Below are positions 2,985 through 43,690 of a stretch of 64,000 bases of DNA, in pieces. Location of the stretch: the NCBI GenBank assembly GCA_947044365.1, contig OX345638.1, forward strand, positions 6,953,201-7,017,200. The letters are read 5' to 3'. Numbering within the stretch: position 1 is the stretch's first letter; each line of letters opens with the position of its first letter. The notes beneath the pieces are model-generated. The model was not told the origin of the DNA. It saw nothing but the letters and a program-made list of their open reading frames with translations, and ran no database searches. This stretch comes from Petrosia ficiformis (lineage: Eukaryota > Porifera > Demospongiae > Haplosclerida > Petrosiidae). The position numbers were made by a program, and so were the translations under genes.

Positions 2985-3137
2985 GAGGATCTGACAAACA
3001 CTGTTTCATTTTCCTAAACACACACACACACTCCTGTTTTACTAGTTATATCATCAGTAGGGGTAGTGGCTATACAAGGAACCAAAATCAAACAATATGC
3101 TATCAACTGAAATGTGTATGTAATTATATGCTTACCT
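2985..3137 (-). pseudogene. Relic of a ROC-COR exon/intron boundary
   Basis: This stretch aligns by eye with 28650-28835, the intron flank of the intact ROC-COR exon. Shared landmarks are the CA run, ATATCATCAGTAGG, the TACAAGGAACCAAAA-type block and a degenerate TTACCTGCTTCAGG corresponding to the ACTCACCTCTTTCAGG donor. The coding part is missing: the ABC-transporter fragment starts where the exon should continue. Confidence 0.5.
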
Positions 3138-11836: not shown

Positions 11837-12265
11837 CTGTAAAGAAAATATAAAAAAAGAGCATTTCATATACAGACATAATAGTGGATTAGAAAATAGA
11901 ATATACATATTTAGCACACTTCCATTGTTGCTCCTAGAAGGGTGGCTTAGTGTATAATACCAAATTGTTCAGATTTATAACCCAAATGAATAATATATAC
12001 ACATGGTACATGTATACAGAACCCTCACCACTATAGTATATACTTTGGTGAATAGAAGTGAACTGAGATAAACCGAGTATTTTGTCTATGCTGTGTTAAA
12101 TAACACATTTCATATCTTATCCACATACTATTATATTCTAATTTTGCTGAAGCAAATTTATACAGTCTTTATGTAGTTAAGTAGGAGTGGTAGCTATGCA
12201 AGGAAGCCAAGTCAAACAGGAAAAACTTCATACCAGGCCAAACGAGGTAAACTATGATAACTCAC

Positions 12266-12475: not shown

Positions 12476-12558
12476 ACAGAACGAACATTAATGTAAAGTC
12501 TATTAATAATGTATGGCCCAAAAATTATTTTGAACCTATGACAAACTGTTTAACTTAC

Positions 12559-17600: not shown

Positions 17601-20600
17601 GATACAAATGATACAAATATAAATCATGTTACGTAGTTATTACATACTATATGAGACCTAATTTTGAGAAAACCACACTTTTGTGCATGCATAATAATAT
17701 TGAACAAACGCTTACTTCTAAAAGCTTTTGAGCATTTTTGTAGAGGAAGCCAATACAATTTGGTATCCAGGAAGACTGGTTAATGCTCCTCCTGGATACC
17801 AAACGTACAATTTGGGAATTTGACAAGTAAGTAAGTGTTTGTTTAAAATTATTATGCACCATAATTCTCACATGTATATTACCTGATATAGAGCTCTGCT
17901 TTTTCAGATTTTCCAACATATTCTTATCATCACCTTGTATTACTTTATGTGATATATCTGTTGATTGAGATGACATTTCAATATACAATAATTGGTTGGA
18001 ACTTGGAAGTACATGTATAGCTACAGACCCACTGAGAGGAGGGGGATAACCCAGATCTGTTTGGAGAAGCCAAAAGTTTATTATTAGTAAACAATCATGT
18101 TATAAAAAGAAGAGGAAAAAAATAACAGCACACAATTCTAAACAAACACTTAAGTTAACACAAGAAATTTTGACGGAAGCACTAAAATTGAATGTTTACC
18201 CCAGGCCCAACCTGTTCTCTCATTGGCCTTGTATAGCTATTATGCTATATATCATTATAGAGTGCCTGGAGTACATCAACTATACATTCAGTTCAATATG
18301 AAAACTTACCTATCTGATTCAATATAGTATCTGCTACTCCATTGAGAGCTGGATCATCTTGTTCCTTTAATATATAGCAAAATGACTTCAGCATTTTAGG
18401 CTCACTAGACAACTCAAGGACATGTTGAACTTCATTCAACAGTCTACTAGTTTTTTCAAACCGGCTAAGAGATGGTTCGTTCACCATTTCATCTTTGATC
18501 TTTTCAGATATTAATCCATACGATGAGAGCTGCTTTGCTAATTTATCTGGGTTGGGTATTAGACCTAGGAGATGTGGTACGTGGGGCTTCAATATGTTGT
18601 GTGGTAGGTTGGTGCGAGATATAGTTGTTGCTGTCATTCCTATGACACAAATGGAAATAAAACGATGGTCTCTAATCTGTGATGAATTATTCATTTATTA
18701 ACACTTATAGTATGAGTTTACACTAATCACTCTGGTTAAAGCTCATTCTCACCTACATGTACTATTACAATAATCATCACAATCATGCTCACTGATTTAT
18801 ATGAAGTAGAAATTAGGGTTCCACCCAAACCACATTATACCAATATTTCCGATACATATTCTAGATATAAACTGATACTGATATGAGAAACCTAATATTA
18901 TGTAGATTATTCATGTTTAATTACAGTCCCACCCAACTCTTTTCGCTACAGTTGCATTTAGACATTTTGGCTGGACAAGTCAATTTCAGACTCTCAGCCA
19001 ATTCCCAGTCCAGATATTATTCATACCAAATGATTTACTGCTAACAACAAAAGACATGCTATTTTGTAAAGTCAGTATTAGGAAATCCAAAATTATCTTC
19101 ATAGGTTATACGGTAAATTTAAATCCAACCTTTTTTTTTTAAACGATCACCAAATAATTGTATATAATATCATATTAGAACAGATACATAGTATGGTTTT
19201 GAGGTGTGTATTAGCAATATCAGACCTGAACCATAAGATACTAAATATTACTCCAGATAACAGACTAACCTACCTAATTTACTGGATTTACATATAAAAT
19301 GGCTAAAAATATTTGTCCAGTTAAAATGTAAACTTTGTAAAGAGAGGTACATGTACATGTGTAAGCATCTTCAATCATTAAATACATGATTCATAAATCA
19401 CTAATCACAATAGAAAATATTTTCACCTTGTTCTTCTTCTGATATATCTTCCGTAGGCTTGACTTTCAGTGGCTCTGGTTGTCTGGACTGCAAGAAATAG
19501 TATATAATTATTACATTCTTCTTAATTATTAGTATGAGCATTATTATTATTACTACTATTAATGTGATGTCTAAGTTTATCTGGTGAAAAATTATAATTA
19601 CTTTTGTTTTTATAAAAAATACTTTGTATTTACAATAAATCATAACGATAATATGAAAAACCCATAATAACTGTTTTCATATTCTTCTACTGGATTTAGT
19701 GCAATACGCAAAATTTTCAACCTAACAACATGTAGTTTAAGATACATGTACTTAATCCTTTCACAGTTGAATTATTAACTGACAATGTGGATGTTAATAA
19801 CCATACGTTATGTTATTGTTAATATAACATACCATAGTTGTTTGTAAAGTATCGTGCAGTGTTTTGTCACCGACGTTTTCATCTGTAAATAAATGATAAT
19901 GGATAAGTAGCATGAGTCTTTAGATTTGAACAAATTACATACAAATGCATTTTTATGAAAAGACAATTATATCTACAAGGCAGTGCTGCATACAGAAAAT
20001 GAAGCTGGGGGGGGCAATATGAGACTTTAGAGAACGTAGGGCGGGCAACGATGTTACCATGTGCCGTAAACACATATTGGTGTGACATTTTGGGAAACAC
20101 TCGTGTATTTTTCTGTAACAGTTGAAATTTTGGCCATGCATTTCCTGATTAACTACTCTAGAGTCATTCTGTATGACGAAAACTACAGCAATGTCAGCAC
20201 ACAGTTCAGCATTGCACCATTTAACAATTAGACTACATGTATACAGATATAACATGAAAAAATCTCACATGTACTACATGTACAATGTAACATGTAGTAT
20301 TTACTTTTACGTCACACTCATGAAAGTCTAGGGGGGGGGCAGGAGCTCCCCTTGAGGGGGCAAATGCCCCCCCCCCCCACCCTCTCTAAATGCAGCCCTG
20401 AAAACCCAGTATATACACATGTGTATCATGATTAAAATATCTAGCAGCATCTCTGTGTGTCAGTGAAGATATTCATGAAGTTTAAAATTCATGTCTGACA
20501 GAAACTGACACAATTTTCAGTATTCACTTGAAAACGTAGCTTCTGTTGTTCTGTTGTATATTTACACATATAAATGTATATGTATGTAAAATGATTGATT

Positions 20601-22090
20601 GCTTTCCCATGGGTTCAAACTATACATGTATATTTATATTCTTGCATCACCTACGTGAAGCAAGTATGCATTGTATACATAGTTAAGGAAGTTGCCTCAT
20701 TCTGGGGGGCTCTATCAATTAATGGCACGGCATGTAATAGAATGCGTGCTCGAGCTCTACACAGTACTGACCAGCAAGAAGAAAGAAAGCTGCTTGGAGC
20801 TTACATAGAAACTGAAACTAATAGCTAGCTATTCGACCTAAAAAATAATCCTAAAGTTCTACAAGATCCTTTAACCCTTAGAGCACTGAGCCTGTATTTC
20901 AAAATTCTTCCCATTTCCAACACTGGCGACTCTATTGCATATAATGTGGCCATCGTTCACTTTCTCTACCGAAAAACCATCAACTTTTTTTGCCACATTC
21001 AGCAGCTTGTGCCTGACGCCAATTACAAGCATTTGGACAGCTTCGTGTAGCTAGGAACAGACGGCGAACCACGTAGGGGTGAAATGTCACATATATGTGA
21101 CATCAGTGCTCTAAGGGTTAAAAGGTAAGGAGAGTAGATATCATAATAATAACTGCAATAGGCTGTTGTGTTTCAGGCATGATAAAGTTAGCCATGATTA
21201 CTGAATGCTGGACAACACAAAGCAATCATAGGATACCTTTTTCTCTACATATCTTGTTTCTAGTGTTATGAATAACCTCCTGAAAAAAATACTGTTTACT
21301 GTTCTATTTTTGCGATATGAACAGGGTTGTATCTTCATCTACCATTCAAAATGCATAATACCAAACAAATGACTGTAACTTTATGTACAAAATAGCTGAA
21401 TAATGAACATTAAAGTATCAATGCAGGGATGGATCCAGAATGGAATTATGGGGTGTGCTAAGAGGTGTGGGTTGAACGTAAATGGCAGTAGAACTTGAGG
21501 GAAACAGAAAAGTGTTTAAAACTACTGGTCTAGGGACGGAAAACAAGAATTACATTATAAGTTATTTTCTTGTTTAAGTATACTTACTACCTGTATAGCA
21601 GGAATGGCCAAAAAAGGGGGTAGGGCTATAGCTAAATCCACCTCTGCAATGACTATAGAGACTCCTTGACAAAAAAAGTGAAAGGGTTTACAATATGCCT
21701 TCATTATAAGGTCAACTTGCTGTCACCTTTAACATCTTGCATTTCATACCTTTTTCCAATGTTGCCTGAAGTTCTAAAATGTTGTTGATATGAAATGCTG
21801 TAGGAAGGCCAACTACTCCACTGTCAGGAAGTTGTGTAATACAGTGACATGAAGGACACTTTACAACATATCTGTCCTGCTGTGTTAATGATAACATAAA
21901 TATCTTTAGCAGTGTAGCCATAGTAATCACATACCTCTAGTTCTTGTGGTAATTGTTCAATACAAGTTGTACAAAATGAATGATGACAAATTAGCACTTT
22001 TGGATTAATATATCTCTGCAAACAGACACCGCAGGTTATATTCTCTTCCAATTTCCGTTTGAATCCTGTAGTAGGAGTTTGTTCAGCCAT
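12559..22090 (-). CDS. RING / Death-like / ROC-COR gene, copy 1 (eight exons recognised)
   Basis: Exons 21935-22090, 21750-21879, 19833-19882, 19427-19487, 18310-18639, 17883-18056, 16501-16545 and 12559-14625 join in one open frame of 1004 codons plus one base. The start is the ATG at 22090, directly before the RING. Domains: C3HC4 RING at residues 20-63 (ligands C20, C23, C35, H37, C40, C43, C60, C63), Death-like domain at about 155-240, a Ser/Thr/Gln-rich linker, then ROC from about 330 with Walker A GASGVGKTS at 341-349 and DSGGQ, then COR. The last exon ends in phase 1 without a stop, so a downstream exon is required; the next phase-compatible one is 9629-11836. If so, the product would have 1973 residues and two ROC-COR modules. 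The RING suggests ubiquitin-ligase activity, the Death-like domain homotypic signalling, and the ROC a nucleotide switch. Confidence 0.75.
15313..15390 (-). repeat. tRNA-derived SINE head
   Basis: The minus strand reads AACTCAGATGATAGAGCA (box A-like) and, about 30 nt on, GGTCTTGGGTTCCAACACC (box B-like), the spacing of a pol III internal promoter. It is too diverged for a functional tRNA. A copy lies at about 57978-58055 in the duplicate. Confidence 0.55.
15450..15955. repeat. MITE with ACTTGTCC-rich inverted termini
   Basis: The left end GGGTTCGAATTTAGCACTTG and following CACTTGTCC repeats are inverted at the right end (GGACAAGTGGATTAG ... AATTCGAACTC). The 99-codon frame inside (15553-15852) has no recognisable domain and is identical in the duplicate at 58218-58517, as expected from duplication rather than selection. 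Confidence 0.65.
16178..16255 (+). repeat. tRNA-derived SINE head
   Basis: Reads TAGCTCAAATGATAGAACA (box A-like). An anticodon-like arm follows: TCTGA, loop CTAGCAA, TCAGA. Box B-like GGTTTCAAACC comes next. The arm would carry AGC as anticodon, suggesting tRNA-Ala ancestry. The acceptor stem is absent, so it is not a functional tRNA. Confidence 0.55.
16501..16545 (-). CDS. Short linker exon, copy 1
   Basis: 45 nt, phase 1 at both ends; acceptor TTTACAG, donor AAG/GTATAC. It encodes MSSSDTKKQGTTQQ. Present in copy 3 (59166-59210) but replaced by a different linker exon in copy 2 (31290-31352). Confidence 0.65.
17883..18056 (-). CDS. Linker exon, copy 1
   Basis: 174 nt, phase 1 at both ends; acceptor AAACAG, donor CAG/GTAATA. 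It encodes a proline/serine-rich start (LGYPPPLSGSVAIHVLPSS) then a polar helix around DDKNMLENLKKQ. The larger open frame reaching down to 17647 reads into an intronic inverted repeat and is not coding. Confidence 0.65.
18310..18639 (-). CDS. Death-like domain exon, copy 1
   Basis: 330 nt, phase 1 at both ends; acceptor GTCATAG, donor TAG/GTAAGT. After a short lead comes HVPHLLGLIPNPDKLAKQL, SYGLISEKIKDEM, RLLNEVQHVLELSS and MLKSFCYILKEQDDPALNGV. The L-x-x-Y-G-L-I helix turn and the closing F-C-x-x-L-K-x-Q-x-x-P motif are shared with the exon at 54662-54955. The length and helix spacing fit the CARD/DED/Death superfamily. Confidence 0.7.
19427..19487 (-). CDS. Acidic linker exon, copy 1
   Basis: 61 nt, phase 0 in, phase 1 out. 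It encodes SRQPEPLKVKPTEDISEEEQ. Identical in the two other copies (34647-34707 and 62414-62474). Confidence 0.6.
19833..19882 (-). CDS. Linker exon after RING, copy 1
   Basis: 50 nt, phase 1 in, phase 0 out; acceptor TTTACAG, donor ATG/GTATGT. It encodes ENVGDKTLHDTLQTTM and connects the RING exons to the acidic linker. Confidence 0.55.
19981..20400. repeat. Repeat with CAGKGCTGCA ends and poly-G/poly-C tracts
   Basis: Left end CAGTGCTGCATACAG and right end TGCAGCCCTG are inverted. Interior G and C tracts differ in length among the copies at 35724-36176 and 62947-63381, so they are mutating by slippage. All three copies hold it, so it predates the duplications. Confidence 0.5.
20590..21245. 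repeat. MITE family M1 copy, carrying a nested TTAA-flanked element
   Basis: Left end GATTGCTTTCCCATGGGTTC and right end AAAGCAATCATAGGATACC mark the M1 ends in reverse orientation. The same element lies at 36366-36990 in copy 2. Confidence 0.65.
20875..21117. repeat. piggyBac-like MITE with TTAA target duplication
   Basis: CCCTTAGAGCACTGA at the left and TCAGTGCTCTAAGGG at the right are perfect inverted repeats, each next to TTAA (20871-20874 and 21118-21121). TTAA duplication with CCC-starting termini is the piggyBac hallmark. In copy 2 the left end is truncated (about 36625). Confidence 0.8.
21750..21879 (-). CDS. RING exon 2, copy 1
   Basis: 130 nt, phase 0 in, phase 1 out; acceptor AACACAG, donor AAG/GTATGA. 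It supplies the last two zinc ligands (KCPSC) and a helical extension VVGLPTAFHINNILELQATL, similar to the segment after the RING in TRIM proteins. No B-box follows. Confidence 0.75.
21935..22090 (-). CDS. RING exon 1 with start codon, copy 1
   Basis: 52 codons, ATG at 22090, donor GAG/GTATGT. The zinc-ligand pattern is TCGVC, then ICHHSFCTTC, and the remaining CxxC comes from the next exon. Upstream are a GCGC-rich stretch (22148-22165) and no TATA box that I can support. Confidence 0.8.
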
Positions 22091-24712: not shown

Positions 24713-25067
24713 AACTCTTATTTCTAAACACTTTATTAATCATCTCCTAAAGAACATCGTCTCTTTTCAATATTTTTAGAGTCTAATTTCAGAATATTAT
24801 TTTGTAAGGAATATATAATGAATTTCCACAGACTAGTGCTATGTTGTGCACTGGATAAAGATATATTCAATTTTGTTTCTGGGTGGAGCAATAACACATC
24901 TTCAATATGATTGAAACTTTCTCTAAAACGCGAGCAAAACCATTTTGTAAAAATTGTAAATCTTCTCCCTGCTCAGCTATTGTCTTGGTTTTTGAAATAA
25001 TTATTGTTAAGAAAAAGAATTATCATAAAATTAATAATAGAAAAAATAGTTTGCTATCGGCCTATCA

Positions 25068-25423
25068 CTAGTCGCCTAAAGGTATAAAATCCGGCTTCTG
25101 TATATACTGGTCAATCACTTCTTGCTTTTTAAGGTACTCTTGAACATTCACAGCAATGTTTTTCAATTGCATTTTTTTTAATATGTGTATCACGTTTTCC
25201 CATGTTACTGGTGAACTATGTGACTCAATCCACGTCTTCAAAACAGTCTCCAATCTTTCCCAATTTTCTAAACTGTTATTATGTTTTAAAGATTCACGTG
25301 TATTATCATCAATGTTCAATTCCATTGCAAATCGATCCCATCTTGGACAGTAATCTCTAACTAAATCAAAAACATCCTTGCGTTCAGGAGACTTTTGTAG
25401 TATTCGAATGTTGCCTGGTCGAT
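25068..25423 (-). CDS. Terminal exon encoding Death domain, copy 2
   Basis: 118 codons including stop; acceptor TTTTTCAG. Pattern: KDVFDLVRDYCPRWDRFAME, LNIDDNTRESL, ENWERLETVLKTWIES, SPVTWENVIHILKKM and NIAVNVQEYL. The W-x-x-F-A-x-x-L and T-W-x-x-(I/L) motifs are diagnostic for Death domains. A short polar tail follows. Confidence 0.85.
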
Positions 25424-28400
25424 CTGAAAAAAATTGGTTGAGAAAATACTATTATAGCATTCTCATCTGCAAACTATTTTAGTCAATACCCATGGAGTGC
25501 TATTGGGGTCAAAATAGTATTTAAAATGTTTGCGTTATGTGGTGAATATATAAATCAACGTATTTATAAATTACATTGACGTATTTAATAAACATGTTGA
25601 CTTATTTGTAAATACATCGACGTACTTATATATACTGCAACGTACTTATAAATCTCTCCCGACACAAACAACATGGATGATAACCCTAACAATCCCAGGG
25701 CCTAAACTGGGGGGGTGAAGCCCCACCAGACGCCCACAGTTTGTAAATAGTAAATACGTTGCGGTATATATAAGTACGTCGATGTATTTACAAATAAGTC
25801 AACGTATTTATTAAATACTATTTTGACCTCAATGGCACTCCATAAATACCTACATGTATAGGTGTGCATCAATGAAAACAATGAAGTGTAGGAACATGCA
25901 ACTCCCACGTAAATAATTAACAAGAAAAATGTGTCTATAATGCTTTGTGATTACTATGTGTATCAAATATTGCTGATGGCACTGGTATCTACCTTTCTGT
26001 GTACTCAAATACTGGGGTCTGAAGAGCTACATGTAAGTGTAACTCCAGTCTAGGTACACAGATCTTTGATGAAACTGAAGTACTCTTTCAAGGTTCTAAA
26101 TGATGACCTCCTCGTGTCTGTAACTCTTGCATTAATTGACCAAACCCCTTGGAATGACGTAACTTATATGTGACCAAAAAACCACACTTGTGACACATAA
26201 TCAAACACTTGTTATTCAGCCATTTTATAAAGGACACCAATGATATTTGGTATCTAGGAGAAGCACTAATTGGTTTTCCTGTTTGCCATATTTCATTGGC
26301 TTCATGTAAAAATGGCTGAATAGCAAGTGTTTGAAGGTAAGCATTTGTTATTATGCGCCACAAGTGTGGTTTTCCAAAATTGGGTCACATATATAAATAC
26401 CGTAGAATCTCGAATATAGGCGGGATCCGACTATAAGTGTATACTTTCTTACAAGTGCATATCAGCTTCCTTTATTTAACACTTGAATAAAAGCGGATTG
26501 AGCCGACCATAGCGACCGATAGCTCGATATTATCCTACAATTGGAGACCAGACTAACTTGTATACATGATGTCCTCTTACTACACCAGAAAAAAACGAAG
26601 CTCTCATCCTCCTTACCCGGTATTCTAACAGTGTTTCCCCAGGATAAATACTAAGGATGGGGGAGTGCATCAGTGGTACATCATTGATTAGTTATATACA
26701 AATTTATGTATTATACTAATACATTCGTTATGTTGTATAACAAGGAAGTTACATGACAAGGAGAAACAGTGGAATTACAGAATTACAGAATTGGCAGAAA
26801 TGATTACATTGTACATTACATATCCAACTGTCATTTCCACAATTCTGCTATTTCTAATTCTGCTGTTTCTCCTTCCCCAAAGTTACAGGTATAGAGGAAT
26901 AAATATTAATTATGCTTCTATCTTATGCTTCTATCTGTGCCACTATATTAGTCAATACCGCCCACCCCTACTCCACTGCTAGCTTACATATTACATGATT
27001 AGCAGTTACCCCTTCATAGCAAAATCAAAGAAATGGCTCAATATGTTTTGATATTGAAAGTAACTTATCACAGCCACAAGAAATTCTACTACACTAATCA
27101 AAGTAACATACATTTTAGCCTTACTCAATCAATATATATCGAAAAAACATAAAATTAATATATGACAAGGCTGGCTCTAAGTATTCCTGTCATGGAAGTC
27201 ACTTCAATTTAATTATATACATGTTTGTAATTACATAATTATATGATAATAACCTGGTGAATACACAATTACACAGGTATCACTTCTCTACATAATAACA
27301 AATCACACAAAATTGTCTATTGGTGGATGAAACAGAGATGTGAAAAAAACCTCTGCCATGGGAATTAAAATTACTAAAAAAATAATTATTCTGAACATAG
27401 TCACAATATTAACAGTGATCAAACTGAAATGTTACCTGATAAAGGTTTGTCATCCACTAATGTTCCAATTGCTATCTGTGGTGAGTTATCTGTGAAATGA
27501 ACACAATTCTAAAAACAGACACACACAAACATACAACACTAGGTTTTAATTAAACGCCCACTGGAGGTTAATTAGGAGACCACAGCACATGGTAGGTACA
27601 TGTTTAAAAGGACGAATAAGAATGGGCCGTTATTTAACTTGAAGGTTTTGTAAGTAAGTTATTATTACATGTATTTACTGATGCATTGGTGAACAGGACT
27701 CTATAAGCATTTTCCAGCAAAGATGCCTTTAACCCTAGTTCTGGTTCCCAAGGCCAGACTATCCATGTCAAATGGTCCTGTAACACCAAAGCATCAAAGC
27801 ATATGTGAATATGTTAAAAGTTAAATACTATTCGTGACACTGCTTTAGCGTTTTGACCAATTAACAAAACTCTGAACCATAGGTAAAATACCAGGCTGGT
27901 CATCTTTCTAAAGCTCAAAGGAAAATCACCATTTCTGTGACATGACAGAAACTTTACACCGTTGGTGCTAGAACTGTGCACTAACACACACACACACACG
28001 CGCGCGCGCACACACATGTATAGACACACACACACAAACACAAACACACACACACACACACACGCACACACACACACAGACACACACACAGACACACACA
28101 CGCACACAGACACACACACACACACACAGCATCTGTGGTCTTACAGTAATTTTAATTATTAATTAACAAACGCCCACCTAAGGTTAATTAATAGACCACA
28201 TGTGTAAAAGCACATGATTTTCAAGGGAATTAGATCTTCTGTAATCCAATGGGAATGGGCCATTATTTAACTTCAAGATTGTGAAAGTAAGTGATTATTA
28301 CATGTATTTACTGATGCATTGGTAAACAGGACTCTGAGCATTTCCAGATACGGATAGAGAGGGAGGGTTGGGATCCCACCAAAGATGTCTTTAACCCCCA

Positions 28401-28667
28401 GTTCTGGACTACCCCTGTCAGGAGTCCAATAACACCAAAGTATCAAAGCATATTAAAGTCAAGATTGTTAAATACTGTTTGTGATACTGCATGCTTTTGA
28501 CCAATAAAGTCCCAAATATAGAAAAGCTCTGAACCATGAGTGAAATACTGGGTTGTCTGACTAAAGCTCAGAGGAGAAACTTTACACTGTTGGTGTTGGA
28601 ATTGGGCACTACCTGCCTCAGTGGTTCAGCTAGCTTGCCCTTTCCACCCAACATGTAAATACACACC

Positions 28668-28732
<65 letters not shown>

Positions 28733-31700
28733 TTTATTTGTTGTATCATCAGTAGGAGAGTAGCATACAAGAAAACAAATGTTACCAACTAAATTGCATG
28801 CAATTATATACTCACCTCTTTCAGGAACAGCTCCATACCAGGCCAAACGAGGCTGCCCTTCAGTATCTTCTACTATCTCATTAGTTGCACAGCACTGAAG
28901 CTGAGTAGGATGATCCTGTGCAACTACAGCTATATGGTTAAGTGGTTCACAAGGACAAGGACAGAAGAAACCTGGCTCAGGTTTGACATTCCCTTTTACA
29001 GCAGCCTCTACCGATTCATGGATGGCACACCTCACTTTTTCTATGTCATCAGGAATTTCGCTAAGTAACTGGATGTAATATGGAGTTTCCATGATGGCAA
29101 ATTTTCCTATCCTCTGGAGTGGTTGAATAATCATAAAGTTCGAATAATTTAATGCATTTCGATTACAAATTATTGACCATTTGTGGGAAAGGAGATGGAC
29201 AATTATGGAACAGAAAAGCCCCATTGGTAAACCTTTTTTGAAGTAAAAAAGCATTGGTGGAATAGTGGATTCAGGAAAGGGATTGATATGTGTAGTATCA
29301 CATACTGGTAGTAGTGCGGGAATGAAGTATTGATCTTCATTTTTTTCGACCTTTACTGCAATAAGAAGATGTTGAAAAATGGCTAGCAATTTCTCCACAA
29401 ACTGAGGGAAACTTTTCAATATGTTTGAACACGTCTCCATCGTTTTGATGAAATCAATGGTAGCAATACCTTCCATAGCTAACAGCTTAATATCTAAATT
29501 GGGGTACTTGTTCACATTGCGTGCGTTACAAATAGTAACCATCAACTCATTGATAATATCAATAAGGCAGTGAATGTTGGCAAATACTATATCATCAGCT
29601 CCTGAATCAGGATAGTACAGCATGGAATTGAAAATATGGAAAAACTTGATAGCACTGACTACTTCTTCATCACTCATACCTAGCTTATGACCGAAAACCT
29701 TGCATAGTGACATATTGAGGACACCACAGCGATTCAAAGCTGCTTTTTGGATGAGAATTTGAAAGCAGTGCCACTTCAAAGGTACTTTGACAATGTATGC
29801 TTGCTCTCGAAGCTTAAGTGCTATTTCTTCTACAACTGGATCATCGAAATTACCTTCCTTTGCTTTTCTGCCATCAACTTCATGCAAGATTTTGCATTGA
29901 GCTTTGTTTTGGTAACAGATTTTTCCTTCCACTGATTTCAAGATATTTACGAGCTTCTCTTCTTTGTCTTCGATACTTTCTGTGTTTCCATCATACTCAT
30001 CTCGATGTGTAGCTATGGCCATAATGCTTAGACTATCAGGAGGCGTGATATATTTGGAGAGAATGCGATCATTTTCGATGATTGCTTTCTGTTGCTGTGA
30101 ACTGGAATTGACCATTACCAGGAGCTGCTTCAGCATTTCCTCCACTTTAGGCGAATGCTCAGTAAAATTGATTTGTCCAGTCTCCAAACACATTTCTGTT
30201 GAAGCTGGCCCAGAGAGATCTTCTGCTAGATTAATCACTAACATGAGGGCTGATGCACACGATAGAAAAGCTGGAAGTAATTTCTGAAATTGAATTTGCC
30301 CTCCACAATCTGTAAAATACAGCCAGCGCTCATGAAGACTCAACTCTTGAGCTTTGATACCTGTACTACACCTGTGATATAGCTCTTGTATAAGAGCAAC
30401 AGCTTTTTCCACATCCTCGGTCTGACCAGGTGTCACTGGGAATTCACTACTAACATCGATATCATTTTGCGATATTTCTTCATCATCTTCATTTAAACGT
30501 GCAGATGCTACTGACAAAGCAATCATTTGTAATTCTGCTAGAATTTTTTCTTCCATGTCTTGATTGTTGACACAAGTCCAGCATTTCCCTGATTTGCCAA
30601 ATCGGCCTACGGACAAAGTGCCAACAGCAATATCTGGAGCTTGAATACAGGGAGTACTGAGTTCCTTGTATGGAAGTGATAAAATGAGGGATTTGAGGGA
30701 TGTTTTACCAGCACGGGCTGCTCCTTGTATGACAGCCTTGGTTATATGTGACTCGACAAAGCCATCTTCCATAGCTTTAACAAAATGCTGTCGATCTATT
30801 GCATCAAAATTATAAAATTAATGAAAAAATATTAATTATGCAGTATATAAAATTATATACATACATGTATTGCCTTAGACAAAGTTACACATTCCACTAA
30901 ATTTTAGTTAACATTTCTCCAGTATGAGCTTGCAGCATACTACATATGATTAGAAGTTACCCAACAAAATAGAAATCCAAGAATTGGGTCAATATGTTTT
31001 GATATTGGAAGCAAATTATCAAACCGAAAAATTGAAAAGAAATTCTACTTCACTAATCGAAGTAACATGTATTTTAACCTTACTATAAATTAAAAGAAAA
31101 AGTTTATTCCAGCAAAAATGAGCTAAATGCATGAAAAGGCTCCTCCAATACTTATTAAGACCAACCACTTTACACTCAAATCTTCCTCCCTCCCCTCTCC
31201 TCCAATCTTCTAATAGCCACAAACAAGAACATTATTGCATTACTGTTAATAGCAATGATTTATGATGTAATCTAGCATAAAGGACTAACCTATTTCTTTA
31301 AAAGGAATAGAGGGTGGAGTTGATTCAGACTGTACAATGCCTTGAGCAGATTCTAAAAAACATAAAAATTAGCTATTAAAAAGGATTAATGATAATTAAA
31401 ATTATAAAATTATGCATCCCCTCATATAGAAAACATACATGTATACTCCCAATCTTTATACATAATTATTGCAACAAGATATATTGAGAAAACAATTGTA
31501 TATAGAGAAAAAAACATCCCTATGATTGCTTTATAAATTTAAGTGAAGATAAACGTATCCCTATGACTGCTTTGTGGTGTCCAGAATTCAGTAATCATGG
31601 CTGACTTTATCAAGCCTGAAACACATCAGCCTATTATAGTTATTATTTTGATTATCTACTCTGTTTACCTTTCAAAGAACCTTGTAGAACTTTAGGAATA

Positions 31701-34700
31701 TATTTCAGGTAGAATAGCAAGCTATTACTTTCCAGCTTCCAGGCCCATAGCCAGACTTCCGAAATGGGGGGTGCTAAATTGGGGTACCAACTACCAAGGC
31801 TATGAGATGCACAATCAACAATGAAGTGTTAAGCTAATACCCTATTGTCACCATAGTTGCAATAAGCTGTCATGTGGTTGTCTTGCTCAGCATCAGTTAT
31901 CAGTGTGACTATGTCCCAACATGTAGCTGACAACCACAAAGAATGCTCTAGTGAAGGGTGTCATGGCTCCTTATTCATAGAATCTATGTTTGAAAGGGGG
32001 GGTGCTCGTGCACACCCCTGCACACCCCCCCCCCCCCCCCCTTTAATGAAGCTTTTTATGTAGTAAAACAGTAATCACCCGAGTAAGCCATAACTGTCTA
32101 TTTTCACTCATATCTCAAAATTAATAATTATCCCAGAAGCCTGATTTTTGCAAATTCGGTCACATATAATATTATATATATATAGTTCGAACCCGTGGGA
32201 AAGCAATCATAGGGATGGCCCTACGGGCCATAACAAACAAAAACAGTCCAGCACAATTAGCAGCAATCTGTTTTACTGTTTTACACTGTGTGGTTTATTT
32301 GTATTCGAAGTACGTTGTTAAAAATGCAATAAATTACTGCTTTAGGCAGGACATTGACTTTTCAGTTCAAGTGGGGATCATCACCTGATTTAAGCCTAGC
32401 TAGAACACTGCTGACATGTTACATGTATATACCTTAAATTCCATGACCTCGTTGGTCATACAAATGATACAAATATAAATCATGTTACGTAGTTATTACA
32501 TACTATATGAGACCTAATTTTGAGAAAACCACACTTTTGTGCATGCATAATAATATTGAACAAACGCTTACTTCTAAAAGCTTTTGAGCATTTTTGTAGA
32601 GGAAGCCAATACAATTTGGTATCCAGGAAGACTGGTTAATGCTCCTCCTGGATACCAAACGTACAATTTGGGAATTTGACAAGTAAGTAAGTGTTTGTTT
32701 AAAATTATTATGCACCATAATTCTCACATGTATATTACCTGATATAGAGCTCTGCTTTTTCAGATTTTCCAACATATTCTTATCATCACCTTGTATTACT
32801 TTATGTGATATATCTGTTGATTGAGATGACATTTCAATATACAATAATTGGTTGGAACTTGGAAGTACATGTATAGCTACAGACCCACTGAGAGGAGGGG
32901 GATAACCCAGATCTGTTTGGAGAAGCCAAAAGTTTATTATTAGTAAACAATCATGTTATAAAAAGAAGAGGAAAAAAATAACAGCACACAATTCTAAACA
33001 AACGAGTTCAAACACTTAAGTTAACACAAGAAATTTTGACGGAAGCACTAAAATTGAATAGTGATGTGCGATACGTATCGATATATCGAAATATCGATAT
33101 TTTCATTGAATATCGTGATACAATATTAGCTTTTGGGTGTATCGATACACTGGAATGGACAGTTTAGTAAATATGGTTTTTCTAATTTGTCTAATTTGAT
33201 ACCTAAAAGTAATTATAACAAGCTAGTGCGCATAACTTTCATTGATTTCTTTTACCATTTCTTGACAAATACATCCAAATAGGACATTTATTTACATTTT
33301 ATAAGTGTTTCAATATTATTTCAAATATCGTGATACTGTATCGTATCGTGATATTTTTGGTAGCGATACGCAATACTATTATTTAGTTGTATCGCACATC
33401 ACTAAAATTGAATGTTTACCCCAGGCCCAACCTGTTCTCTCATTGGCCTTGTATAGCTATTATGCTATATATCATTATAGAGTGCCTGGAGTACATCAAC
33501 TATACATTCAGTTCAATATGAAAACTTACCTATCTGATTCAATATAGTATCTGCTACTCCATTGAGAGCTGGATCATCTTGTTCCTTTAATATATAGCAA
33601 AATGACTTCAGCATTTTAGGCTTACTAGACAACTCAAGGACATGTTGAACTTCATTCAACAGTCTACTAGCTTTTTCAAACCGGCTAAGAGATGGTTCAT
33701 TCAACATTTCATCTTTGATCTTTTCAGATATTAATCCATACGATGAGAGCTGCTTTGCTAATTTATCTGGGTTGGGTATTAGACCTAGGAGATGTGGTAC
33801 GTGGGGCTTCAATATGTTGTGTGGTAGGTTGGTGCGAGATATAGTTGTTGCTGTCATTCCTATGACACAAATGGAAATAAAACGATGGTCTCTAATCTGT
33901 GATGAATTATTCATTTATTAACTCTTATAGTATGGGTTTACACTAATCACTCTGGTTAAAGCTCATTCTCACCTACATGTACTATTACAATAATCATCAC
34001 AATCATGTCCACTGATTTATATGAAGTAGAAATTAGAGTTCCACCAAAACCACATTATACCAATATTTCCGATACATATTCTAGATATAAACTGATACTG
34101 ATATGAGAAACCTAATATTATGTAGATTATTCATGTTTAATTACAGTCCCACCCAACTCTTTTCGCTACAGTTGCATTTAGACATTTTGGCTGGACAAGT
34201 CAATTTCAGACTCTCAGCCAATTCCCAGTCCAAGATATTATTCATACCAAATGATTTACTGCTAACAACAAAAGACATGCTATTTTGTAAAGTCAGTATT
34301 AGGAAATCCAAAATTATCTTCATAGGTTATACGGTAAATTTAAATCCAACCTTTTTTTTTAAACGATCACTAAATAATTGTATATAATATCATATTAGAA
34401 CAGATACATAGTATGGTTTTGAGATGTGTATTAGCAATATCAGACCTGAACCATAAGATACTAAATATTACTCCAGATAACAGACTAACCTACCTAATTT
34501 ACTGGATTTACATATAAAATGGCTAAAAATATTTGTCCAGTTAAAATGTAAACTTTGTAAAGAGAGGTACATGTACATGTGTAAGCATCTTCAATCATTA
34601 AATACATGATTCATAAATCACTAATCACAATAGAAAATATTTTCACCTTGTTCTTCTTCTGATATATCTTCCGTAGGCTTGACTTTCAGTGGCTCTGGTT

Positions 34701-37700
34701 GTCTGGACTGCAAGAAATAGTATATAATTATTACATTCTTCTTAATTATTAGTATGAGCATTATTATTATTACTACTATTAATGTGATGTCTAAGTTTAT
34801 CTGGTGAAAAATTATAATTACTTTTGTTTTTATAAAAAATACTTTGTATTTACAATAAATCATAACGATAATATGAACAAGATATATAGAGAAAAAAACA
34901 TCCCTATATTTGCTTTGTGATGACTATGTATTAAGCATTGCTGATGGCACTAGTGTCTCTACCTTTCTGTGTACTCCTGGGGCCTGAAGACGTAAGTGTA
35001 AGCCTAATTGCAGTCTAAATACACAGATGTCTGATGAACTGACTGAGGTACTCCTTCAAGGTTCTAAATGATGACTTCCTTGTGTCTGAAACTCAACAAC
35101 TTATCATACTTACTTGTTAAAGATTCTTGCATAATATCTATACTGTTTCTCTGCTATATACAACAGTTATTAGCAGTTTTACATCCATTCTGAATCTTCC
35201 TGGCTGGTCTGTAGCTCAAACGCGCGTTCTTTTACGTGCCACGCCCATTAATTGACTGAGCCCCCCCCCCCCCCCCCCCGGGAATGACGCAACTTCCTTA
35301 ACTACGTATACAACGCATAGTCGCGCAAGTGACACAAGAATATATATATATATATATATATATATACATTAAACCCCGTGGAAAGCAATTATAGGGATGG
35401 CCCTACCCATAATAACTGTTTTCATATTCTTCTACTGGATTTAGTGTAATACGCAAAATTTTCAACCTAACAACATGTAGTTTAAGATACATGTACTTAA
35501 TCCTTTCACAGTTGAATTATTAACTGACAATGTGGATGTTAATAACCATACGTTATGTTATTGTTAATATAACATACCATAGTTGTTTGTAAAGTATCGT
35601 GCAGTGTTTTGTCACCGACGTTTTCATCTGTAAATAAATGATAATGGATAAGTAGCATGAGTCTTTAGATTTGAACAAATTACATACAAATGCATTTTTA
35701 TGAAAAGACAATTATATCTACAAGGCAGTGCTGCATACAGAAAATGAAGCTAGGGGGGAGGGGGGGGGGGGGCAATATGAGACTTTAGAGAACATAGGGT
35801 GGGCAACGATGTTACCATGTGCCGTAAACACATATTGGCAAACTAAGGGACTTTGTGTGACATTTTGGGAAACACTTGTGTATTTTTCTGTAACAGTTGA
35901 AATTTTGGCCATGCATTTCCTGATTAACTACTCTAGAGTCATTCTGTATGACGAAAACTACAGCAATGTCAGCACACAGTTCAGCATTGCACCATTTAAC
36001 AATTAGACTACATGTATACAGATATAACATGAAAAATTTCACATGTACTACATGTACAATGTAACATGTAGTATTTACTTTTACGTCACACTCATGAAAG
36101 TCTAGGGGGGGGCAGGAGCTCCCCTCGAAGGGGCAAATGCCCCCCCCCCCCCCACCCTCTCTAAATGCAGCCCTGAAAACCCAGTATATACACATGTGTA
36201 TCATGATTAAAATATCTAGCAGCATCTCTGTGTGTCAGTGAAGATATTCATGAAGTTTAAAATTCATGTCTGACAGAAACTGACACAATTTTCAGTATTC
36301 ACTTGAAAACGTAGCTTCTGTTGTTCTGTTGTATATTTACACATATAAATGTATATGTATGTAAAATGATTGATTGCTTTCCCATGGGTTCAAACTATAC
36401 ATGTATATTTATATTCTTGCATCACCTACGTGAAGCAAGTATGCATTGTATACATAGTTAAGGAAGATGCATCATTCTGGCTCTATCAATTAATGGCATG
36501 GCATGTAATAGAATGCGTGCTCGAGCTCTACACAGTACTGACCAGCAAGAAGAAAGAAAGCTGCTTGGAGCTTACATAGAAACTGAAACTAATAGCTAGC
36601 TATTCGACCTAAAAAATAATCCTAAAGCACTGAGCCTGTATTTCAAAATTCTTCCCATTTCCAACACTGGCGACTCTATTGCATATAATGTGGCCATCGT
36701 TCACTTTCTCTACCGAAAAACCATCAACTTTTTTTGCCACATTCAGCAGCTGGTGCCTGACGCCAATTACAAGCATTTGGACAGCTTCATGTAGCTAGGA
36801 ACAGACGGCGAACCACGTAGGGGTGAAATGTCACATATATGTGACATCAGTGCTCTAAGGGTTAAAAGGTAAGGAGAGTAGATATCATAATAATAACTGC
36901 AATAGGTTATTGTGTATCTGGCATGATAAAGTTAGCCATGATTACTGAATGCTGGACAACACAAAGCAATCATAGGATACCTTTTTCTTTATATATCTTG
37001 TTTCTAGTGTTATGAATAACCTCCTGAAAAAAATACTGTTTACTGTTCTATTTTTGCGATATGAACAGGGTTGTTCAAAATGCATAATACCAAACAAATG
37101 ACTGTAACTTTATGTACAAAATAGCTGAATAATGAACATTAAAGTATCAATGCAGGGATGGATCCAGAATGGAATTATGGGGTGTGCTAAGAGGTGTGGG
37201 TTGAAAGTAAATGGCAGTGTATAGAACTTGAGGGAAACAGAAAGGTATTTAAAACTACTGGTCTAGGGACGGAAAACAAGAATTACATTATAAGTTATTT
37301 TCTTGTTTAAGTATACTTACTACTACCTGTATAGCAGGAATGGCCAAAAAAGGGGGTACGGCTATAGCTAAATCCACCTCTGCAATGACTATAGAGACTC
37401 ATCGAAAAAAAAAGTGAAAGGGTTTACAACATGCCTTCATTATAAGGTCAACTTGCTGTCACCATTAACATCTTGCATTTCATACCTTTTTCCGGTGTGG
37501 CTTGAAGTTCTAAAATGTTGTTAATATGAAATGCTGTAGGAAGGCCAACCACTCCACTGTCAGGAAGTTGTGTAATACAGCGACATGAAGGACACATTAC
37601 AACATATCTGTCCTGCTGTGTTAATGATAACATAAATATCTTTAGCAGTGTAGCTATAGTAATCACATACCTCTAGTTCTTGTGGTAATTGTTCAATACA

Positions 37701-37826
37701 AGTTGTACAAAATGAATGATGACAAATTAGCACTTTTGGATTAGTATATCTCTGCAAACAGACACCGCAGGTTATATTCTCTTCCAATTTCTGATTGAAT
37801 CCAGTAATAGGAGTTTGTTCAGCCAT
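25068..37826 (-). CDS. RING / Death-like / ROC-COR / Death protein, copy 2 (complete, ten exons)
   Basis: Exons 37671-37826, 37486-37615, 35578-35627, 34647-34707, 33530-33859, 32739-32912, 31290-31352, 28816-30795, 27436-27489 and 25068-25423 sum to 3354 nt, exactly 1118 codons with the stop. Domains in order: C3HC4 RING (residues 20-63), linkers, Death-like domain (about 155-240), linkers, ROC with Walker A GAARAGKT at 346-353, DCGGQ and ATHRD, COR, a cysteine-rich end, a short linker and a Death domain (about 1012-1095). All zinc ligands, the P-loop lysine and the DxxGQ glutamine are present, so nothing argues against function. Expected role: a cytosolic E3 ligase whose oligomerisation is set by a Roco-type switch and whose Death-fold domains recruit partners. 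The 5' region is altered by a transposon insertion next to the ATG. Confidence 0.8.
25492..25843. repeat. Inverted-repeat element (ATGGAGTGCYATTGGGGTC ends)
   Basis: ATGGAGTGCTATTGGGGTCA at the left is inverted as TGACCTCAATGGCACTCCAT at the right, with further inverted blocks of ACGTATTTA and ACGTACTTA inside. The centre carries CCTAAACTGGGGGG, also found inverted inside the element at 44736-44981. It is in the last intron of copy 2. Confidence 0.7.
26166..26392. repeat. MITE family M3 (TATGTGACC...GGTCACATA)
   Basis: Termini TATGTGACC and GGTCACATA enclose inverted CCACACTTGTG / CACAAGTGTGG and an inner inverted pair around TTTGGTATCTAGG. Degenerate relatives lie at about 17650-17880, 40905-41110 and 46040-46270. 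The open frame at 26088-26363 reads through the repeat. Confidence 0.7.
27436..27489 (-). CDS. Linker exon between COR and Death domain, copy 2
   Basis: 54 nt, phase 1 at both ends; acceptor TTTCACAG, donor CAG/GTAACA. It encodes NSPQIAIGTLVDDKPLS. A decayed relative is visible at about 53285-53320. Confidence 0.65.
27545..28600. repeat. Local tandem duplication with CA microsatellites
   Basis: About 27545-27980 and 28160-28600 are diverged copies sharing AACGCCCAC, GGGCC-TTATTTAACTT, ATTACATGTATTTACTGATG and CAGGACTCT blocks. The copies end near CA tracts (27984-28129 and 28667-28731). A third partial match is near 54310-54365. Confidence 0.6.
27984..28129. repeat. (CA)n microsatellite with CG and GACA interruptions
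   Basis: Almost pure CACA interrupted by CGCGCG and GACACA units. Frames on both strands through it are artefacts. Confidence 0.95.
28667..28731. repeat. (CA)n microsatellite
   Basis: A near-perfect dinucleotide run about 85 bp from the donor of the ROC-COR exon; it lies in the intron. Confidence 0.95.
28816..30795 (-). CDS. ROC-COR exon, copy 2 (divergent type)
   Basis: 1980 nt, phase 1 at both ends; acceptor GCAATAG, donor GAG/GTGAGT. Motifs: IQGAARAGKTSLKSL (Walker A), STPCIQAPDIAV (switch I-like), YFTDCGGQIQFQKLLPAFL (DxxGQ), IMAIATHRDEYD (base motif), then COR with VPLKWHCFQILI, AIKFFHIFNSMLYYPD and LLIAVKVEKNEDQYFIPALL. The cysteine-rich end reads FFCPCPCEPLNH and closes with AWYGAVPE. 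It is clearly homologous to, but much diverged from, the ROC-COR exons of copies 1 and 3, although the N-terminal exons of all three are almost the same. Confidence 0.85.
31290..31352 (-). CDS. Linker exon before ROC, copy 2
   Basis: 63 nt, phase 1 at both ends; acceptor TTTTTAG, donor TAG/GTTAGT. It encodes SAQGIVQSESTPPSIPFKEI, unlike the MSSSDTKKQ linker in the same place in copies 1 and 3. The SAQ/VQSAQ start resembles the linkers at 9063 and 53775. Confidence 0.65.
   Translation of the reverse strand, partial: NLLKALYSLNQLHPLFLLKK
31500..32235. repeat. M1 MITE fragments around a poly-C repeat, replacing part of copy 2
   Basis: 31500-31735 is the 5' half of an M1 element, 31740-32042 a different G/C-tract repeat, and 32180-32235 an M1 end shared with copy 1. 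In copy 1 this interval holds the intron containing the 16501-16545 exon. The duplication breakpoint with copy 1 is at about 32050. Confidence 0.55.
32739..32912 (-). CDS. Linker exon, copy 2
   Basis: Counterpart of 17883-18056 with the same borders, phases and peptide; no differences seen in the coding part. Confidence 0.65.
33060..33403. repeat. 344-bp MITE with perfect 15-bp ends and 10-bp target duplication
   Basis: Ends AGTGATGTGCGATAC and GTATCGCACATCACT; flanked by AAAATTGAAT at 33050-33059 and 33404-33413. Copy 1 has the single AAAATTGAAT (18186-18195 region), so the empty site is known. Interior is rich in ATCGATA. The same insertion is at 60828-61171. The frame at 33305-33547 reads out of it and is not a gene. 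Confidence 0.9.
33530..33859 (-). CDS. Death-like domain exon, copy 2
   Basis: Same 330-nt exon as in copy 1, with substitutions giving DEMLNEP, EKASRLL and SSKPKML in place of DEMVNEP, EKTSRLL and SSEPKML. All of these are shared with copy 3, linking copies 2 and 3 here. Confidence 0.7.
34647..34707 (-). CDS. Acidic linker exon, copy 2
   Basis: Same sequence and phases as 19427-19487. Confidence 0.6.
34878..35405. repeat. M1-like MITE insertion unique to copy 2
   Basis: Copies 1 and 3 read ATATGAAAAACCCATAATAA without interruption at this place. In copy 2 the sequence is split by an element running from CAAGATATATAG to AGGGATGGCCCTA, with a C tract and a TA run inside. A few A bases of the target are missing, so no clean target duplication can be stated. 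Confidence 0.8.
35578..35627 (-). CDS. Linker exon after RING, copy 2
   Basis: Same borders and peptide as 19833-19882. Confidence 0.55.
37486..37615 (-). CDS. RING exon 2, copy 2
   Basis: 130 nt; encodes QDRYVVMCPSCRCITQLPDS with both zinc cysteines kept, then the same helical extension with one ATPEK change. Confidence 0.75.
37671..37826 (-). CDS. RING exon 1 with start codon, copy 2
   Basis: 52 codons, ATG at 37826. Changes from copy 1 lie before the first cysteine (PITGFNQKL) and at Y-T-N-P; the zinc ligands are untouched. Confidence 0.8.
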
Positions 37827-40720: not shown

Positions 40721-43690
40721 CATTTCTTTCTCCAGCAATGCCCGTAGTTCAAAAATTGTTTGGACGTGCATTGCAATAGGAAGGTCAGCAACTCCAGTGT
40801 CAGGACTCAGGAAGTTGTGTTAAATGGTCACATTGAGGTCAGTGTATAACATATTGGTCTTGTTGTGTAAAATAACAATACTGTTAATTATAATTTTGAC
40901 CGTGGATGTGAAAATCGGTAAATAAGTATGTTGCCAAAGACTTTCATTTAAAGCTTGTTACTCAGCCATTCTGTACAGGAAATTAACTGAATTCGGCATC
41001 TGAGTTGCCGTTCCAGGATCGCAGATTTCGTTGGCTAACTTCACAAAATGTCTGAATAATGACCATTTAAATAATATGTTGTTTAACAAAATTGCCAATG
41101 AATGATTTTTAACACCCACCATGATAATTGGTGAGCCCCACGCTTATCAGGTAGCTGGAAAATTTGCACAGTATATAAAATTATATATATATACAATATA
41201 TATATATATATAATTATATAATTATATATACATGTATATAATGTTGGTACATTACGTATTCTGTAAATATCTTAATGTTCAAATTTCTAAAGCAACATGC
41301 GTGTCACTGCATAAAAGCTATGGATGAAAAGAGGACAGAGCTAAACGAGCTGCAGAGACTAAAGCTAACAAATGAACTGTTGCATTTTGCTTTTCTTCGC
41401 ACTAAAAGCTTGTTTTTACTCAGTGTCAAAAATTTGGTTATTCTAACCACGTCTTCTCATGATTGCTAGTCTCACAAGCCAGACCCAACAGCTAACCAGC
41501 CAATGTACACTGTATATAACTATATATAGGTATAAAAGTACATGTTCATGCATATACTACATACACGATGTTACAGGAGATGTAGAAAGAAAGAAAGAAA
41601 GTAAGAAAGAAAGAAAGAAGAAAGACACATGTACATGAACATACATAGCATATTTGCACAAATACATACATGTATATATATAACATCTGCAGATACATGT
41701 ACATAAGTGTTTATGTACAAGTTAGTAACATACATATGTACATGTTGTATATGTGACAGGATCTAGTACTCTAGTTATTCAATTCATGAGCAGTGCCCCT
41801 ATCTTAAAAGTTAGCTGAATTAAATCTCGCGATTGAATAATGAAAGTAATATTTTCTTTAAGCCGGTTAAAAATAGCCATGACAAATTATATTCTACATC
41901 TCAGGGATACACATGTACAAGTGTATGTGACCATGCAAGTATCACAGTTTCAAATTGCATGTTAGTACATGTACATGTAGTGTATGCACTGTAGACATCA
42001 TCAGCTCCATGCTGGTATATTGGTGACATACTGTTTCTAAGTTATGGCTGCTTAAATTTCTATTGCTGTGAAAATTAGATTTTGAGAACACGCCCATTTA
42101 ATTAAGAGCAATTTACATGCATTAATTACATGTACATTAAAATGGCACGCTTTAAATGCTCATCCTACACAAACTATAGAAATCTGCGGTTTAAGATTAG
42201 TTGCACACAGCTAGCAAAGGTATTATACATGTCCTGATATAGGCATATTTCTAGTGTACATACATGTACATGTAGTTATACACTCCATTCTCTAATGAGC
42301 TCTTGGGTATAGTACATGTACATATACGTACATGTATGTCTCGTTTGTACACATGATGCTAATAAACAACTTGACCTCTCAGATCCTGTGTGACAATATG
42401 AGAGTCTCGTTATACTAATAAACATTTGTTGGATATTCAGAAACATTTTGGTATAACTATGTGTAATGTTAAATAATCACAATATTTAAATACCACTGTT
42501 ATTACAAACACATTTATAATTTACACATATATACTATTTAATAAATTATAGCATAGTCATACTTACCTACAGTGGTAACAGGTTTATGGGTAGTTTGACT
42601 GGTTTGGTTGGAAACAGGTTCAAAAGAAGTTTTACGTCTTGGTCTGAGTTCTACAATTATAAAGGTAGATAAAATAAGACTAAAAAAATTTAATTAAAAT
42701 CATTTGCCTGATGTTATGCATACAAACCCCCCATAATTCCATTAAATTATTAACTTGATGAGCGTCTTCAGAAAAAATTCACAATATGAATATTATTGAA
42801 GTTTGGCTGCCAAATAAAAAAGGAAAAAACAAACCAATCATACCTGAGTGTATCTTTTTCATCTTTCTTCTGTGAAATGTCGCATGAGCTTATAGCTTGG
42901 ACTGCTATGATATACATGTATGCATACAGTGTAAAAATACAACAAATTAATGTTACAGTAGTAAGATACAAATAGCATGACAAAACACGATGAGCTCCCA
43001 TAAAGTACTAAAAATTTTTCTTTAACAGTGGAAAATGAGTGATAATACCTGGCTGTTTCTTTTCCTTCTGTTGCAAACGTTACTTGAGCTTGTATCTTGC
43101 ACTGCTGTTGAACTAATCAAGACAATGGAAGACTACATACAGGTACATGTAGGACGTCTTTGAAAAGACTTTTGCTTTATGTACATGTACGAAATAACTG
43201 AATAAGGATTAAAGATGTCTCTCACACTAGAGGCTGACCTCATCTGTTTGACCAAAAAGCTAAAAGGGTTTACAATGTGGCCTTTAATATACATAACAAG
43301 GCTTGCTGTCATTTTAAAAATCTTGTATCTCATACTTTTTTCCAGTGTGGCTTGAAGTTCTAAAATGTTGATATAAAATGCTGTAGGAAGGCCAACCACT
43401 CCACTGTCAGGAAGTTGTGTAATACAGCGACATGAAGGACACCCGCCACACTGATTTGTCCTGCTGTGTTAAACTGTTAATGATAACAATTTATCTAAAT
43501 ATCTTTATCAGTGTAGCTATAGTAATCAAATACCTCTAGTTCTTGTGGTAGATATTGGATACAAGTTGTACAAAATAAATGATGACAAGTTAGCACTTTT
43601 GGATTAGTATATGTGTCCAAACAGACACCACAAGTGAGATTATCTTCCAATTGTTGACTGAATTCATTAGTAGTACATGTAGTTCAGCCA
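40721..43690 (-). pseudogene. Fourth RING / linker gene copy, broken
   Basis: RING exon 1 (about 43545-43690) still encodes LTCGVCLDTYTNPKVL, CHHLFCTTC and LPQELE, but the ATG upstream is out of frame with the zinc knuckles. RING exon 2 (about 43345-43465) has one extra base just before CPSC. A second, older RING exon 2 remnant is at 40721-40825 (PDTGVADLPIAMHVQTIFEL). Linker exons at 43040-43115, 42844-42901 and 42567-42650 retain splice signals; the last is paralogous to 49236-49319 in copy 3. No Death-like or ROC exon was found between them, so this copy is a degenerate remnant. Confidence 0.65.
41162..42560. other. Non-coding stretch rich in TA runs and TACATG repeats
   Basis: Contains a TA run (41190-41230), an AAAG run (41585-41623) and many TACATGTA palindromes. 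The 64-codon plus-strand frame at 41275-41469 has no recognisable domain. Confidence 0.5.

Follow-up and report, generated by a model that had tools for sequence, protein, structure and literature searches.

Do a RING ubiquitin-ligase domain and a Roco GTPase form one protein in a sponge, or do they belong to neighbouring genes? The question is raised by a 64,000-nucleotide (nt) stretch of the genome of Petrosia ficiformis (contig OX345638.1, positions 6,953,201 to 7,017,200; the whole stretch is called the window below), in which a sequence-only reading had joined ten minus-strand exons into a single chain of RING, CARD/DED-like, Roco and Death modules. We refer to this gene, at 37826-25068 on the minus strand, as gene A. 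Its ends, exon count, length and phases were recovered as claimed: the ten exons join in frame to a coding sequence of 3354 nt (1117 amino acids (aa) plus stop; an alternative acceptor of exon 2 at 37612 makes the protein one residue shorter), and all nine introns are GT-AG with phases that agree throughout. Exons 3, 4, 7 and 9, of 50-63 nt each, are weak if taken singly. On comparative exon evidence, the assignment of all ten to one RING/CARD-like/Roc-COR/Death gene is well supported.

This evidence comes mainly from ankyrin-Roco paralogues on another contig, C1, identified in a search of 191 Mb in 29 contigs. With 67 of 495 candidates scored, the Roc-COR exon of gene A (the A type) was found to have at least 13 near-complete relatives on C1, 88-94% identical to it and two of them with one stop each; six of the 13 were examined, each with ~19.5 kb of upstream sequence. 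Neither a RING nor a CARD-like exon lies in these upstream regions, and all six genes have ankyrin-like exons there, recognized by motif 4 to 17 kb upstream and confirmed by Pfam in the four genes tested (2e-11 to 4e-8). Ahead of the C1 Roc-COR exons we found collinear homologues of exon 3 (its 3' part, in 4/6 genes), exon 4 (5/6) and exon 7 (6/6), with splice sites mostly kept; for exon 4, the donor GT is present in all five homologues and the acceptor AG in all four alignments that extend that far. The short exons behind the RING of gene A would thus come from a Roco gene, and since this holds for exons 3 and 4, Roco-gene exons stand on both sides of the CARD-like pair (exons 5 and 6), with exon 7 closing the far side; the case for one gene is built chiefly on this. 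An ankyrin-bearing ancestor of gene A is indicated by exon 3 together with the C1 paralogues. Downstream of Roc-COR, three of the six C1 genes have a Death-like exon (35-41% identity) and two others a CARD-like exon (41%).

The two ends of the predicted protein are the most readily recognized. The RING has all eight C3HC4 ligands and exceeds the Pfam cut-offs (zf-RING_UBOX 3e-6, zf-C3HC4 7e-6), and its first exon resembles the RINGs of TRIM2, 31, 34, 5 and 21 in a comparison with the PDB. It also keeps V22, P61 and, at the linchpin position, the arginine R64, residues of recognised significance. The Death domain likewise passes Pfam (6.9e-7, 29.8 bits against a cut-off of 22.6), and exon 10 matches Fas and FADD in the PDB (E 0.01-0.07), so that both domains are as the sequence-only reading had them. 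Between them, exon 8 is, by its structural model, a Roc-COR module: only Roco proteins, among them LRRK1, LRRK2 and bacterial and archaeal Roco, appear in its top 21 Foldseek and top 25 VIA matches, COR lies directly C-terminal of Roc, and the exon is homologous to a B-type exon (see below) that passes the COR-A profile. Its G motifs (G1 GAARAGKTS, G3 DCGGQ, G4 THRDEYD) are conserved; across an alignment of 22 Roc-COR sequences, DxGGQ and the T and D of THxD are invariant and the P-loop G/GKT is present in at least 90%. Exon 5 was modelled as a six-helix bundle (predicted local distance difference test score, pLDDT, 90) to which CARDs are nearest; fold and weak profile evidence are suggestive of a CARD-like module, as in the claimed CARD/DED-like fold, without reaching significance.

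Three known classes were considered and set aside. No B-box row was obtained from Pfam up to E 1 across the whole protein, which rules out a TRIM family member; no NACHT or NB-ARC row was obtained and the nucleotide-binding module models as Roc-COR, which rules out an NLR or inflammasome sensor; and no protein kinase row was obtained, so gene A lacks the N-terminal kinase of a DAPK group member.

Gene A does not stand alone: it belongs to a shuffled tandem array, which the sequence-only reading had missed. A genome search with RING exon 1 (150 of 296 candidates scored) gave at least 11 places at 92% identity or more and two at 73-75%, all on the minus strand of contig C3, from 6.07 to 7.06 Mb. 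In nine of these 13 close copies, a Roc-COR exon of one of several types lies within 10 kb downstream of the RING, on its strand and ahead of the next RING (the loci at 7060.8 kb, C, A, B, and at 6554.7, 6488.3, 6420.3, 6192.7 and 6070.7 kb); of the other four, the relic D (Table 1) has none, two have no Roc-COR match within 15 kb and one has a match only 24 kb off, among the matches listed. Copies B and C, in the window and on the strand of gene A, carry the same N-terminal exons before different Roc-COR exons, and the block that they share with gene A ends at ~32.05-32.14 kb, between exons 6 and 7. A further copy, A' (C3:6478-6488 kb), repeats exons 1-8 and continues with a Roc-COR of the R3 type and a Death-like exon; no counterpart of exon 9 was found. 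The locus at 7060.8 kb has no CARD-like exon and a Roc-COR only 22% identical to that of B, the one at 6554.7 kb has a broken A-type Roc-COR followed by an R3-type exon, and at 6070.7 kb the Roc-COR match lacks ~80 N-terminal query residues, including the P-loop. Seven relatives of the B-type Roc-COR (89-94%, one partial) lie at 4.0-4.76 Mb of C3, where no RING is among the matches listed. One front end is thus combined with two or more distinct Roc-COR lineages, which apparently occur without it as well.

Several other features of the array were observed. Behind copy B, two different Roc-COR exons stand in tandem (window 9627-14605, minus strand; end phases 1 by eye), possibly giving a protein with two Roc-COR modules, and the same B-type and R3-type pair recurs at C3:6178-6184 kb. 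A degenerate duplicate of the B-type exon's 3' end lies just behind that exon (window 12254-12490, minus strand; pieces 59-63% identical). Death-domain exons above the Pfam cut-off lie at window 956-1246 and 51691-52011 (3.2e-10 and 6.7e-5), both on the minus strand, as are copies B and C. Tc1/mariner-type transposase-like frames were seen by eye between the RING and exon 3 of copy C (L029:2-944, minus strand), and at C3:6068622-6070878 (minus strand) the B-type match without its P-loop part lies within ~500 bases after the RING exon. Elsewhere, a 62% RING-exon match ~650 bases before a 25% Roc-COR match (G000:C5:1916320-1918646, plus strand; frame of 838 aa) is possibly an independent RING-Roco gene, and contigs C9, C15 and C17 have many RING matches within single frames of ~750 aa, probably intronless TRIM-like genes.

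The Roc-COR exon of gene A is itself a mosaic. Relative to A', gene A is 98-100% identical over most of 30.7-34.2 kb and 99-100% beside exon 8 (27.9-28.8 and 30.8-32.0 kb; past ~27.9 kb the alignment is no longer good), but only 81-93% over most of the exon. The C1 genes L002, L004 and L008 are 92-99% identical to exon 8 by bin and at most 70% in their introns, save for 51 bases beside the exon (77-80%); at its outermost 84-96 bases exon 8 swings back to A', and all the genes compared are similar in one 200-base bin (29700-29899). Over exon 8, the synonymous distance (dS) is 0.08-0.11 between A and seven C1 genes and 0.22 between A and A'; the eighth C1 gene (56914957), at 0.20, is about as far from A as A' is, a point against the interpretation that follows. 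The simplest account, and a likely one, is ectopic gene conversion of the exon core (~1.8 kb) from a C1-type ankyrin-Roco gene to A, the tract being confined to exon 8 because intron homology is too low. An assembly join is possible, but it needs two switches within one exon.

Taken together, we think it probable, with some reserve, that gene A encodes one 1117-aa RING/CARD-like/Roc-COR/Death protein, rebuilt from an ankyrin-Roco-Death gene and acting as a GTP-switched RING ubiquitin ligase (E3) and death-fold scaffold. The ankyrin-Roco-Death gene would have received the exons for the RING and a CARD-like pair of phase-1 exons, which displaced its ankyrin exons and left exon 3 as a relic, and the middle of the Roc-COR exon would afterwards have been exchanged with an ankyrin-Roco gene on C1; exons 5-9 are each of phase 1-1, a form whose gain or loss leaves the reading frame intact. 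The oligomeric state of Roco proteins such as bacterial Roco and LRRK2 changes in a cycle with the nucleotide, dimerisation generally activates TRIM-type RINGs, which work as dimers, and death-fold modules seed assemblies. With all three in one chain, we propose a GTP-gated platform in which Roc-COR would serve as a GTP/GDP-controlled dimerisation switch, the assembled state would bring the RINGs together for ubiquitination of self or clients, and the CARD-like and Death domains would recruit or seed death-fold partners. We infer the order of evolutionary events, the GTP switching, the E3 activity and the immune or cell-death role, and the same holds for the earlier suggestion that nucleotide-controlled oligomerisation is coupled to ubiquitin signalling in an inflammasome/TRIM-like design. 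Gene A suggests a predicted GTP-switched ubiquitin or cell-death sensor, and the array, expanded, mosaic and partly broken, resembles a rapidly evolving family for recognition or defence. More tentatively, the cluster may be a combinatorial receptor array of RING-CARD-like front ends, interchangeable Roc-COR engines and Death-fold outputs, coupled by symmetric phase-1 cassettes and inter-contig gene conversion.

Several points weigh against this account, the first of which concern the join. The one-gene evidence is comparative in kind, with the single transcript predicted from it, and exons 1, 2, 5 and 6 are tied to the others only by recent duplicates, a support limited by the fact that their introns are about as conserved as their exons. 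Two adjoining head-to-tail genes, one RING/CARD-like (exons 1-6) and one Roco-Death (exons 7-10), may have been joined only on paper, as would fit the A-type Roc-COR without RING in all six C1 genes examined, the B-type copies at 4.0-4.76 Mb and the end of the shared block between exons 6 and 7. We regard this as unlikely, since exons 3 and 4, behind the RING, are homologues of ankyrin-Roco exons, a Roc-COR follows so many of the close RING copies, and the phases fit at all junctions; the single chain of the sequence-only reading is upheld comparatively, by exon homology and recurring architecture.

A second set of points concerns the state of the gene. Related copies are broken at several loci, with Roc-COR fragments of up to ten stops and an isolated RING relic (copy D). 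The A branch carries 4 synonymous and 8 non-synonymous changes (p 0.24-0.42), which do not show constraint and are no evidence either way, and RING exon 1 of A and B differs by a non-synonymous distance (dN) of 0.033 and a dS of 0.032 on five changes, which again does not show it. Gene A could accordingly be a copy in decay or transition, structurally joined and yet either a pseudogene or an unexpressed product left over from tandem duplication and gene conversion. This we hold to be about as improbable as the pair of genes, for none of the ten exons is interrupted, the splice dinucleotides are canonical, the residues of the RING and the G motifs are intact, and Roc-COR dN/dS is 0.23-0.41 between A and the eight C1 paralogues (0.23-0.48 against relatives overall), although these values speak for the whole family and not for gene A in particular.

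Finally, Pfam, which passes the RING and the Death domain, leaves Roc below its cut-off in the gene A protein (E 0.23, 12.1 bits against 27) and gives no row for COR-A, so that the Roco module claimed earlier stands by its model, its motifs and its homology to the B-type exon and not by its own profile match; the putative immune role is plausible. Least likely of all is a non-enzymatic death-fold scaffold, with a RING that only dimerises and a structural Roc-COR: some RINGs are not E3s, Roco GTPases are often slow and both activities are here predicted only, but the eight zinc ligands, V22, P61, R64, the P-loop, DCGGQ and THRD are all present.

The features of gene A and its copies are given in Table 1. 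Around them, long CA/TG repeats were seen by eye in the intron 3' of exon 8 (window 28670-28735 and 27980-28130), and a lysine-rich plus-strand frame ending in a stop (24641-24712) looks by eye like the 3'-terminal exon of a gene that converges on gene A. Further off, a 152-aa minus-strand frame (2225-2680) is ZU5-like by eye, with no Pfam match up to E 1, and plus-strand exons were read by eye as ABC transporter (3111-3728), RecQ-like helicase (44054-44320) and calponin-homology (47233-47544).

Table 1. Exons of gene A and features of its copies, in window positions.
Feature	Position	Strand	Basis
Exon 1: start codon, RING ligands C20, C23, C35, H37, C40, C43	37671..37826	-	Pfam; frame; TRIM RINGs in PDB
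Exon 2: RING ligands C60, C63, with P61, R64	37486..37615	-	Pfam; frame
Exon 3: 17 aa, read as relic of last ankyrin exon of ankyrin-Roco gene	35578..35627	-	3' part and donor collinear in 4/6 C1 paralogues
Exon 4: linker	34647..34707	-	collinear homologue in 5/6 C1 paralogues
Exon 5: CARD-like six-helix module, phase 1-1	33530..33859	-	model, fold match, weak profile
Exon 6: linker, phase 1-1	32739..32912	-	frame; recurs in copies B, C and other loci
Exon 7: linker, phase 1-1	31290..31352	-	collinear homologue in 6/6 C1 paralogues
Exon 8: predicted Roc-COR GTPase module (GAARAGKTS P-loop, DCGGQ, THRD)	28816..30795	-	model, alignment, motifs
Exon 8 tract nearer C1 ankyrin-Roco genes than A', read as gene conversion (ends approximate)	28900..30699	-	identity by bin
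Exon 9: linker, phase 1-1	27436..27489	-	frame; similar DNA in 3/6 C1 paralogues; unaligned in A'
Exon 10: Death domain and stop	25068..25423	-	Pfam Death; Fas/FADD in PDB
AATAAA ~330 nt past gene A stop	24732..24737	-	consensus match only
Copy B RING exons 1-2	21751..22090	-	sequence match
Copy B exons 3-6, including CARD-like exon 18311-18640	17884..19883	-	sequence match
Copy B B-type Roc-COR (end = end of open frame)	12539..14605	-	COR-A 3.7e-11, above Pfam cut-off
Second Roc-COR, R3 type, behind copy B (extent = open frame)	9627..11888	-	COR-A 1.7e-12, above Pfam cut-off
Copy C exons 3-6; its RING just past the window's right end (L029:2307-2646)	60508..62848	-	sequence match
Copy C B-type Roc-COR	55300..57273	-	sequence match
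Copy C second CARD-like exon, after Roc-COR	54630..54947	-	sequence match
Copy D: isolated RING relic; no Roc-COR match between it and gene A RING	43334..43662	-	sequence match

Among known sequences, no named or full-length relative appeared in 29 matches, with 8000 candidates scored and a query coverage of no more than 59%. For open reading frames (ORFs) 100% identical to the RING piece (P0042), 85-92% identical to the CARD-like exon (P0031, P0033, P0034, P0037) and 74-77% identical to Roc-COR (P0020, P0023), the longest ENA contig is in each case of 10,494,744 bases, and the RING, CARD-like and A-type Roc-COR ORFs probably lie on one contig of another assembly. In the literature surveyed, mostly open-access text without figures and so of limited coverage, no description of a RING-Roco fusion was found, in keeping with the earlier claim that no described family has an N-terminal RING on a Roco protein.

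DAPK1 has ankyrins. Its group (kinase, Roc-COR, Death), which stands beside LRR and LRR-kinase groups in the Roco classification given in the available text of PMC6337361, resembles gene A in a Roc-COR followed by a C-terminal Death domain and differs in its kinase; in gene A, Pfam has none, and RING and CARD-like exons would have displaced the ankyrins. The expanded Trichoplax ROCO family, as its main text describes it (PMC4104024), likewise combines Roc-COR with CARD and Death, some members having a second, Ras-like GTPase domain; that main text, figures aside, has no mention of a RING. In Aplysia, too, Roc-COR is fused to immune-signalling domains, the partners described in the accessible text being TIR, LRR and others, with no RING fusion among them (PMC9334734). 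The brown-algal LRR-ROCO genes, going by the text available, form an expanded set that exon shuffling has diversified and that has been put forward as immune receptors (PMC11378527; Zambounis 2012, as cited there and in PMC4104024). They shuffle single LRR exons of phase 2, whereas the sponge array shuffles RING, CARD-like and whole Roc-COR exons, mostly of phase 1, and gene A is further set apart by its likely gene-converted Roc-COR core. With its exon-limited mosaic, the array offers a test bed for the assembly of multidomain innate-immune-like proteins and, if the combinatorial reading is true, would supply an animal of an early branch with a family of GTP-switched ubiquitin-ligase/cell-death sensors that diversifies.

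The closest functional parallels are found in mammals, where, according to the text available for each, the RING ligases TRIM1 and praja2 act in trans on the Roco proteins LRRK2 (PMC8919618) and MFHAS1 (PMC5520684), respectively. In these pairs, as is proposed for gene A with its TRIM-like RING, a RING ligase works with a Roco protein; there the two are separate proteins, while gene A would be a fusion without a B-box row. Such a natural fusion would be a Rosetta-stone case for the link between RING ligases and Roco proteins, and gene A a compact system for asking if the GTP cycle of a Roco protein can act as the switch of a RING ligase.

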